From the NCBI GenBank assembly GCA_013334325.1, contig JAAXXT010000025.1:1-35907 (forward strand): a stretch of 35,907 bases of DNA, written 5' to 3'. Of the stretch, positions 7,593 to 17,489 are shown piece after piece. The stretch comes from Erysipelotrichaceae bacterium. Lineage in GTDB: Bacteria > Bacillota_I > Bacilli_A > Erysipelotrichales > Erysipelotrichaceae. The position numbers and the translations under genes were made by a program. Position 1 is the first letter of the stretch. Each line of letters begins with the position of its first letter. The notes beneath the pieces are model-generated. The model did not search any database, was not told the origin of the DNA, and worked only from the letters and a program-made list of their open reading frames with translations.

Positions 7593-7616
7593 TCTTATTA
7601 ACTTGATTAAAGTGTA

Positions 7617-7630
7617 TCATAGCGCTTACA
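7617..7630 (-). promoter_or_regulatory. Catabolite-responsive element (cre)-like site
   Basis: The site reads TCATAGCGCTTACA on the plus strand. Against the cre consensus TGWNANCGNTNWCA it has one mismatch (position 2). It lies at the predicted transcription start of the membrane hydrolase, a position where CcpA binding would repress. Confidence 0.5.
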
Positions 7631-7637
7631 TTTGTGC

Positions 7638-7666
7638 AATATGATAATGTAATAACTTATTGACAA
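7638..7666 (-). promoter_or_regulatory. Promoter of the membrane hydrolase
   Basis: On the minus strand TTGTCA (7666-7661) and CATATT (7643-7638) are separated by 17 bp. It predicts a start near 7631 and a leader of about 125 nt. Confidence 0.5.
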
Positions 7667-7684: not shown

Positions 7685-8515
7685 CTACGATGTACGCAAA
7701 GTTAAAGTGATGAGCTCTGGCCCATTGAAGAATCGAATGGGAATGATACTGTTTCCTAGTCCTCGACTGATACACATAGTGGTCTTATCTTGTGTCCATA
7801 AACCTGAAGTATATTTAGGTAATATTCCTTGATCAGGTGCGATAAGGCCTCCTATGACAGGTAATCTCATTTGTCCCCCATGCGCATGACCTGAAAAGAC
7901 AAGATCTAAACCATATGATACATAAAGTTCAAAGTTTTCTGGATGATGGGCAAGTAATAGAATAAAATCTGTTTTCTCAACTTGGCTCATCATAAACTCA
8001 AGTGCGTAAGAAGGTGATGAGTTTTCATTTAATCCAAGGATCTTTATGGATTCATTGGCACTGTTTTTAAAATCAATAACTTGATTTTCTAGAATGATGA
8101 CTCCTGCTGAGCTAAGGTTCATCTTCAATGAATCATACAGGCTTTGATCGATCCAACTCTCATGATTTCCACTTACGAAATAGATCGGTGCTAGATCTTT
8201 TATCCCATGGATCAAATCCATCACAGAATCTAGATTTGGATGAGAACTGTCGATAAGATCTCCAGTGATGAGGATCAGATTAGGTTTCTGAGAGATGACT
8301 TTATCTATTAGTGTTGATTGTTTATTCCCAAAATTCTCATTATGAAGATCTGAGATCTGAACGATCTTGAATCCATCAAAAGAAGATGGCAATTTAGAAT
8401 TCACTAAAGTATATTGAGTTGTCTCAATAGTGAAATTTGGAAGTATCGATAAGGCAAAAAGAAAAACCAATAAAGCCAGAAAGATCATCGTTTTCTTATG
8501 TTTTATTGGTTTCAT
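7685..8515 (-). CDS. Membrane-anchored metallophosphoesterase (YkuE-like)
   Basis: A 276-residue protein with an N-terminal membrane anchor (residues ~10-28) followed by a calcineurin-like phosphoesterase domain. The metal-ligand motifs appear in the family order: ISDLHNE, TGDLIDS, GNHES, LAHHPE, and the late GHAHGGQ. This order matches the YkuE-type group, several of which act at the outer face of the membrane. The stop of the upstream SDR is three bases from its ATG (TAACCTATG), so translation is probably coupled; no separate ribosome site is visible. The natural substrate cannot be deduced. Confidence 0.85.
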   Translation of the reverse strand: MKPIKHKKTMIFLALLVFLFALSILPNFTIETTQYTLVNSKLPSSFDGFKIVQISDLHNENFGNKQSTLIDKVISQKPNLILITGDLIDSSHPNLDSVMDLIHGIKDLAPIYFVSGNHESWIDQSLYDSLKMNLSSAGVIILENQVIDFKNSANESIKILGLNENSSPSYALEFMMSQVEKTDFILLLAHHPENFELYVSYGLDLVFSGHAHGGQMRLPVIGGLIAPDQGILPKYTSGLWTQDKTTMCISRGLGNSIIPIRFFNGPELITLTLRTS

Positions 8516-9418: not shown

Positions 9419-9503
9419 GGGTGTCCTCTTTTTTGTTTATCTTAGAATTCTAACACGCTTCACATATTATAAACAAATCATGACCGAAAAACGACTTTCA
9501 CAT

Positions 9504-9528
9504 ATAAAAACCTTGGATTTCCAAGGTT
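9504..9528 (-). terminator. Terminator of the small membrane-protein pair
   Basis: AACCTTGG/CCAAGGTT is an 8-bp stem with a 4-nt loop. On the minus strand it is followed by TTTTTATATG. The 16-bp core is identical to that of the terminator at 3847-3875. Confidence 0.8.
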
Positions 9529-9542
9529 AGATGACGTTTATT

Positions 9543-9698
9543 CTATTTACCCATTATGATAAACACACCAGAAACGATCGCTAGACAAGATAGAAGTAGA
9601 CCTAATGATGGGACTGGAATCTTTACCAAGGCTGAAGCTCCGGAAACAATCAACCATAGTCCTAAGAGTAGAAATCCCATATTCTTTGTTATTTTCAT
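9543..9698 (-). CDS. 51-residue two-helix membrane protein
   Basis: This is a short minus-strand gene, ATG at 9698-9696 with AAAGGAGA six bases upstream and TAG at 9545-9543. It reads MKITKNMGFLLLGLWLIVSG and continues with a second hydrophobic stretch (LGLLLSCLAIVSGVFIIMGK). The excellent ribosome site, the two clean transmembrane segments separated by a short proline-containing turn, and the terminator after it support a real gene. I do not recognise a named family. It is 17 bp downstream of the lmo0937-like gene and shares its transcript, so the two products may work together in the membrane, possibly under envelope stress (inference). Confidence 0.75.
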   Translation of the reverse strand: MKITKNMGFLLLGLWLIVSGASALVKIPVPSLGLLLSCLAIVSGVFIIMGK

Positions 9699-9715
9699 AC
9701 ATTCTCCTTTATTGT

Positions 9716-9865
9716 TTATAAAATACGTTTACCCTGAATAATCTTGATCAAGACAATGATGACAGCGATCACCAACAAGACATTGATGAATCCACCGATC
9801 GTAGTAGAAGTAACGATGCCTAATAACCATAAGATAATAAGTATAGTGGCAATGGTCCAAAGCAT
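9716..9865 (-). CDS. lmo0937-family small membrane protein
   Basis: A 49-residue protein, MLWTIATILIILWLLGIVTS then TTIGGF and a second hydrophobic helix ending in KIIQGKRIL. This two-helix pattern with MLWTI..LWLLG, a TIGG turn and a basic end matches the lmo0937 family of Firmicutes membrane peptides, whose function is unknown. AAAGGAGA precedes the ATG by seven bases. It is the first gene after a strong promoter at 10022-10050 and a structured leader of about 150 nt, which is remarkably long for a 49-codon gene. Confidence 0.85.
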   Translation of the reverse strand: MLWTIATILIILWLLGIVTSTTIGGFINVLLVIAVIIVLIKIIQGKRIL

Positions 9866-10015
9866 TTTGAGTCTCCTTTCCTTTGATTTGTCAAAGTTTA
9901 ATAAAGTGGTTCCTAATCAAAGTCAAAATGTATCCTCCGGATACTGGTTTTAGATCGATTAGGTCAAGATTCTGCTCTATTGTGACCTTCATAAAGTTTG
10001 AAGGTTAGAGGATAC
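9866..10015 (-). promoter_or_regulatory. Structured 5' leader RNA, candidate riboregulator
   Basis: The promoter predicts that the RNA starts at about 10015, exactly at GUAUCCUC (10015-10008). That 8-mer is fully complementary to GAGGAUAC (9937-9930), closing an 86-nt domain that holds the hairpin ACCUUC/GAAGGU. The same GGAUAC can instead form a local hairpin GUAUCC-GGA-GGAUAC (9944-9930), so two folds exclude each other. Further down, CUUUGAUU and AAUCAAAG can pair, the latter immediately before the AAAGGAGA ribosome site. I do not recognise a known riboswitch class. Confidence 0.5.
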
Positions 10016-10021
10016 TCCTTT

Positions 10022-10050
10022 ATTATAGGCTTATTTTACACATTATACAA
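10022..10050 (-). promoter_or_regulatory. Promoter of the small membrane-protein pair
   Basis: On the minus strand TTGTAT (10050-10045), a 17-bp spacer, and a perfect TATAAT (10027-10022). Confidence 0.75.
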
Positions 10051-10144
10051 ATCACCTACTAAGCTACACCAGATCTTGAGACAGTTATTTATGTCTAAAA
10101 GTAATGGTTTATAGATAGTGAGAGATGAGTTAAAAAACTTGAAG

Positions 10145-16796: not shown

Positions 16797-16909
16797 GATG
16801 ATATGAGGGAGTACTTGGCACCTTGTGCGGTTTTGTCAACAACCCGATGAGCGATCATCTGGCAAACCTTAAACAAAGAGACTCATAACCAAGCGGATAT
16901 GAGTTTTTA
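16797..16909 (+). promoter_or_regulatory. yybP-ykoY Mn2+ riboswitch with overlapping terminator
   Basis: GAGGGAGTA (16805-16813) and the CCCGATGAG..ATCTGGCAAACC part (16843-16868) match the conserved loops of the yybP-ykoY class. The basal helix pairs TATGAG (16802-16807) with CTCATA (16882-16887). The same CTCATA is the 5' arm of a terminator with TATGAGT (16898-16904) followed by TTTTT. Ligand-stabilised P1 would therefore disrupt the terminator: an ON switch. Genes of the mntP family are known targets of this class. Confidence 0.85.
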
Positions 16910-16928
16910 TTTGCTAGAAAGAGGAAAG

Positions 16929-17489
16929 ATGGATTTCTACTCGATACTGATCATCGGTGTTGGATTGTCTATGGATGCTTTCGCTGTAGCTTTAGTCAAA
17001 GGATTATGTACTAAGGACCATCGTTTTCGCTTCGCACTAAAAATAGGGCTTTATTTTGGATTCTTTCAAGGGTTTATGACCTGGTTGGGTTATACCTTAG
17101 GTTTATCTTTTAGTTCATTGATCAATAATTATGATCATTGGATCGCGTTTATCCTCTTATCGATCATCGGTGGAAAGATGATCTATGAGGGTCTTCAAGT
17201 CAAAGATCTTAGTTGTGAAGTCGATCCAGGAACTGCGTTTCTCCCCATGTTAAGTGTCTCACTGGCCACCAGTATTGATGCTTTGGCGGTAGGAATCAGT
17301 TTAGCTTTATTAAGCACATCCATTTTATCGACCTCATTGATCATTGCTTTGGTTACGCTTTCTTTATCCATAATAGGTGTCATCATTGGTAAACGCTATG
17401 CTTCACTTTTAGACAATAAAGCAGAGATCTTAGGAGGCATAGTATTATTAGGGATTGGGCTTAAGATCTTAATCGATCATTTAACTTAA
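16929..17489 (+). CDS. mntP: Manganese efflux pump MntP
   Basis: The 186-residue, six-helix protein has the length usual for MntP/YebN. It opens with the family signature MDFYSILIIGVGLSMDAFAV and repeats the same theme in the second half (SLATSIDALAVGISLAL), as expected from its internal duplication; the aspartates in SMDAFAV and SIDALAV are the metal-transport residues. It exports Mn2+ from the cytoplasm. The in-frame ATG at 16899 lies inside the riboswitch terminator; the ATG at 16929 follows AGAGGA. Riboswitch control, visible directly upstream, independently supports the Mn role. Confidence 0.95.
   Translation: MDFYSILIIGVGLSMDAFAVALVKGLCTKDHRFRFALKIGLYFGFFQGFMTWLGYTLGLSFSSLINNYDHWIAFILLSIIGGKMIYEGLQVKDLSCEVDPGTAFLPMLSVSLATSIDALAVGISLALLSTSILSTSLIIALVTLSLSIIGVIIGKRYASLLDNKAEILGGIVLLGIGLKILIDHLT

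Follow-up and report, generated by a model that had tools for sequence, protein, structure and literature searches.

A conserved leader of about 91 nucleotides precedes a two-gene operon for tiny membrane proteins in an Erysipelotrichaceae bacterium; it moves together with this operon and holds complementarities that are mutually exclusive. We propose, with a probability of about 0.6, that it is a cis-regulatory RNA at the 5′ end of the operon mRNA, in which a signal shifts the balance between two folds. That the leader is real, conserved, restricted to one lineage and acts as an RNA is more probable still; that both folds form and regulate, we infer from the pairings described below. All positions refer to the window, i.e., the whole stretch of 35,907 nucleotides that was analyzed.

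A leader upstream of two small membrane protein genes

The first gene of the operon (9716–9865, minus strand) encodes a membrane protein of 49 amino acids belonging to the lmo0937 family (DUF5670). It scored 51.2 bits against PF18919 and 53.6 bits against NF033488, thus exceeding the curated cut-offs of 23.5 and 30 bits, respectively. Its partner (9543–9698, minus strand), a membrane protein of 51 amino acids, matched no family; orthologous open reading frames were found in G002, a genome of the same genus, in G007, and at a locus of another genus (L143). The operon is predicted to end with a terminator at 9509–9528 (minus strand). An lmo0937-family gene and a 51-residue partner downstream of the leader, as described in an earlier sequence-only reading of the window, are present in both the window genome and G002, and all the elements named in that reading were found between 10015 and 9866 of the minus strand.

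Upstream of the leader, a perfect −10 element TATAAT (10022–10027, minus strand) is identical in G002, and the distance from TATAAT to the following GTATCC is 6 bases in both genomes. The best −35 element available, TTGTAT (10050–10045, minus strand; spacer of 17), agrees with the consensus at three of six positions, and because of this weakness the consensus promoter scan of the window listed nothing at the leader. The promoter, which had been called strong, is therefore not clearly strong. Transcription is predicted to start near 10015 on the minus strand, a placement that is credible because it is conserved in G002. The conserved element, delimited by this start and by a short U-tract, covers 9925–10015 (minus strand), or predicted +1 to +91.

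The first bases of the predicted transcript, GUAUCCUC (DNA GTATCCTC; 10008–10015, minus strand), have as their exact complement GAGGAUAC (DNA GAGGATAC; 9930–9937, minus strand), with 70 nucleotides between the two strands of this helix, called P1. The 3′ strand of P1 can alternatively enter a local hairpin, GUAUCC-GGA-GGAUAC (DNA GTATCC-GGA-GGATAC; 9930–9944, minus strand), which is followed by A-UUUU. P1 and the hairpin have the GGAUAC strand in common and are mutually exclusive, and both are invariant in G002. A Shine-Dalgarno (SD)-like GGAGG (9938–9934, minus strand), conserved in G002, lies mostly inside the 3′ strand of P1. The remaining elements, on the same strand, are the P2 hairpin ACCUUCA-loop-UGAAGGU (9985–10005; 7 bp in the window) and the block AUAGAGCAGAAU (9969–9980), which is the same in G002 at 12 of 12 positions. 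The third helix of the sequence-only reading (9881–9922, minus strand) pairs CUUUGAUU (DNA CTTTGATT; 9922–9915) with AAUCAAAG (DNA AATCAAAG; 9888–9881), the latter just 5′ of the AAAGGAG ribosome site. It is present in the window but absent from G002, whose spacer is shorter; the ribosome site itself is outside the conserved element.

Conservation of the leader in a second genome

A sequence search found one relative of the leader, in G002 (77% identity over 91 nucleotides, E value 2e-11), where it precedes the same two-gene operon. The element is identical at 69 of 90 aligned columns; the corresponding values are 20/35 further upstream and 23/44 downstream. Exact blocks of 9, 12 and 27 nucleotides are shared, and GTATCCTCT, ATAGAGCAGAAT and AAAACCAGTATCCGGAGGATACATTTT are unchanged in the alignment. 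The longest exact string common to both leaders is 27 nucleotides, as compared to at most 11 in 300 shuffles. The fourfold-degenerate sites of the two peptide genes are nearly saturated (14/35 identical; 5/17 and 9/18 for the individual genes), the coding DNA in the blocks common to the two genomes is mostly 68–74% identical, and the aligned non-coding DNA of the mntP block shows 53% identity. Because the fourfold sites and this non-coding DNA have diverged so far, the conservation of the leader points to selection on its nucleotides, and the alignment supports strong purifying selection. Furthermore, conservation begins at the predicted +1 and stops at the U-tract, as would suit an RNA element of about 91 nucleotides rather than a plain promoter. 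The proposal of a regulatory-RNA leader is thus strengthened by the apparent purifying selection and by its start at the predicted +1, but it loses the third helix.

Pairings within the leader

Folding of the leader is better than that of its dinucleotide shuffles, 2 of 200 of which did equally well (z = −3.0). Its complementary strand folds nearly as well (z = −2.95), so that the folding energy by itself is no proof of an RNA. Of the shuffles, 0.16% contain a sequence exactly complementary to the 5′ 8-mer. In G002, six of the seven P2 pairs are kept, with one C-G replaced by A-U through changes on both sides, one U-A changed to U-G, and one pair lost. The main length change between the two leaders, an indel of 6 nucleotides, falls in the P2 loop, and the minimum-energy fold predicted for G002 does not include P2.

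A competitor of P1 at an early stage is UAGAG of AUAGAGCAGAAU, which can pair with CUCUA (10010–10006, minus strand). For short transcripts, the predictions in both species go from the CUCU/AGAG pairing together with P2 to P1, and P1 is predicted to be favored by 5–8 kcal/mol in the first 90–95 nucleotides of both. The full-length predictions are opposite: the window favors the hairpin by means of a window-specific extension, and G002 remains in P1. Hence the claim of mutually exclusive folds holds for the two pairings, both kept in G002, whereas the full-length switch of the window requires downstream pairing that is specific to it. Covariation is uninformative: of the two sequences, both have the same P1 and the same hairpin, and P2 has one compensatory pair. 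The shuffle control for pairing was equally uninformative, the observed value being reached in 266 of 500 shuffles.

Distribution of the leader and mobility of the operon

The covariance model of the leader (R1) was used for a wider homologue search covering 273 genomes of the family, 316 of the order and a class sample of 395. In none of these three sets was a credible copy detected beyond the window genome and G002, which have one copy each; the 314 other genomes of the order gave none. The one weak extra hit, in the class sample (G528, E value 0.004), was A+T-rich with the core missing, and the two weak genus matches that were inspected fall in coding genes. R1 gave no match at 80 GTDB loci encoding lmo0937 relatives (0/80) and no credible one at the remaining lmo0937 loci of the order. 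The leader is therefore not a trait of the lmo0937 family at large but is specific to one lineage. Pattern scans of IMG/VR returned 10 and 6 matches, none of them supported by R1, and BLAST against phages and plasmids found no leader.

The sister genome G001, which has about 93% identity with the window, is without the stretch matching 9490–10107, which comprises the promoter, the leader, both genes and the terminator; about 40 bp stand in place of this unit (G001:C162, L206 5298–5338). In G002 the operon and the mntP cluster adjoin back to back; in the window they are about 7 kb apart. The leader travels with the operon, and the unit is movable. Elsewhere in the window, a stretch of about 60 nucleotides at 7603–7663, adjoining a gene that ends at 7685, has two places in G002 at 82–84% identity and is possibly a dispersed repeat.

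Rfam search and the mntP leader

In accordance with the earlier statement that it could not be matched to a known class, the leader was below the gathering threshold for every family in the copy of Rfam used. The E. coli alx leader is a known Mn2+ riboswitch; taken as a control (L205 1298–1640), it gave no RF00080 match at E ≤ 1 with the same copy, which seems to lack RF00080 or not to report it. The negative result for the operon leader is for this reason weaker than it looks.

A second leader is located at 16803–16912 (plus strand) of the window, upstream of the mntP ATG at 16929. Its core contains GGAGUA, GUCAACA and CUGGC, and its UGAG/CUCA closure has a strand in common with a terminator. 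By this architecture it resembles a yybP-ykoY Mn2+ riboswitch. Neither the mntP leader of the window nor 20 relatives matched RF00080 in the Rfam copy used, which leaves this apparent Mn2+ riboswitch unreported. A model made from two sequences, the mntP leaders of the window genome and G002, found 79 of the 273 family genomes, and the genes downstream of such leaders include mntP and those for P-type ATPases. Thirty aligned mntP leaders covary strongly (95% of cells paired, double changes at 19 of 24 pairs, 0 of 500 shuffles). Since a model of the same style is able to detect a widespread element, the operon leader is truly rare. The two leaders are alike in being conserved between the same two genomes, and in the mntP leader, too, a P1 strand belongs to an alternative structure, there a terminator; they differ in that the operon leader is narrow in range, and no sequence similarity between them was noticed.

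Possible mechanism and alternative explanations

In the regulatory RNA that we favor, the 5′ end would pair with GAGGAUAC to form P1, closing a domain with the P2 hairpin and the invariant AUAGAGCAGAAU. In the alternative fold, CUCU would pair with AGAG of AUAGAGCAGAAU and GUAUCC locally with GGAUAC. A signal, which may be a small molecule, an ion or a protein, would tip the balance between the two folds and so alter the amount of operon mRNA that is transcribed to its end, escapes decay or is loaded with ribosomes. The hairpin and U-tract at the end of the element suggest attenuation, although as a terminator the structure scores poorly. The hairpin (9944–9930, minus strand) has an energy of −4.9 kcal/mol and is followed by four Us after an A; judged by a stable G+C-rich stem and a long U-tract, it does not qualify as an intrinsic terminator (score −47 in the window and −42 in G002, against −10 and −4 for the operons' own terminators). 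With the ribosome site outside the conserved element as well, the leader shows no clear expression platform. The SD-like GGAGG inside the P1/hairpin region makes 5′-end stabilization or ribosome standby possible as well.

Among the alternatives, a riboswitch of an undescribed class deserves tentative consideration. P1 would close the aptamer, the hairpin with its U-tract would be the OFF platform, and ligand-bound P1 would allow transcription to continue. Such an arrangement would account for the GGAUAC strand common to P1 and the hairpin and for the conserved U-tract; the invariant unpaired AUAGAGCAGAAU and AAAACCA resemble an aptamer core, and the Rfam copy used gave no match. As in transcription-attenuating riboswitches, the leader begins at the transcription start, and its domain-closing strand is common to an alternative hairpin followed by Us. 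Unlike in these, the hairpin is a weak terminator, only two examples are known, and neither an Rfam family in the copy used nor a ligand goes with them. The poor terminator score is one point against a riboswitch; others are a range that is very narrow for the metabolite type (2 of 316 order genomes, one copy in each) and gene functions that suggest no ligand. More speculative is the idea of a new, very narrow riboswitch class responding to an envelope- or metal-related signal, in which P1/hairpin exchange at the 5′ end would control the pair of tiny membrane proteins.

It is rather unlikely that the leader is a 5′ mRNA stabilizer of the STAB-SD style, in which the P1 terminal stem and/or the SD-like GGAGG would constitutively block an exonuclease. 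P1 would indeed start at the first predicted nucleotide, the conserved GGAGG sits well upstream of the true ribosome site, and a strong terminator is absent. The STAB-SD leaders of Bacillus likewise carry an SD-like GGAGG far from the translated start, plus a terminal stem; in this comparison, drawn from general knowledge, the operon leader differs in that its GGAGG strand can be sequestered by either fold. A stabilizer would have no need for an invariant unpaired block of 12 nucleotides or for a competing hairpin that is exactly kept.

Control at the DNA level is less probable again. A repressor would bind half-sites with the sequence GTATCC at +1 and, at about +72, the GTATCCGGAGGATAC palindrome, an inverted repeat of fair operator shape that is kept in both species. 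However, the perfect palindrome occurs once each in the window genome and G002 and is missing from the remaining genomes of the genus, near-matches in these two genomes are no commoner than those of a reversed control, and a regulator gene was recognized beside neither operon. A regulon is rejected, as the palindrome does not recur at other promoters, and an operator leaves the invariant AUAGAGCAGAAU unexplained. Finally, a leader-peptide attenuator is dismissed: the 33-codon open frame that spans the window leader (AUG at leader position 24) has no equivalent start in G002, which has only a 6-codon frame in another register, and third codon positions are conserved too.

The lmo0937 family and the meaning of the leader

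The 49-amino-acid protein belongs to the same small membrane protein family (NF033488) as lmo0937 of Listeria monocytogenes, which depends on sigma-B (PMC7690807, PMC2813243) and to which the sRNA Rli51 binds (PMC11394854), whereas a leader of the operon type was not found across the family. This regulation supports a stress context, though not the mechanism proposed for the leader. In other genera of the family, lmo0937-family genes were seen by eye to lie directly before secreted ice-binding-type adhesin-like proteins and to come after YtxH-like reading frames (G014, loci L004 and L006; G283 and G284, loci L139 and L138). These neighbors suggest an envelope-stress setting.

The leader provides a test case for cis-regulatory RNAs that are too rare for covariation methods: nucleotide conservation in a pair of saturated genomes picks it out, which Rfam scans and R-scape-type tests cannot do. 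Proteins of the lmo0937 family span many phyla and their function is not known, so a conserved leader offers a handle on their signal. If the leader proved to be a new riboswitch class, its ligand would reveal the role of these proteins.
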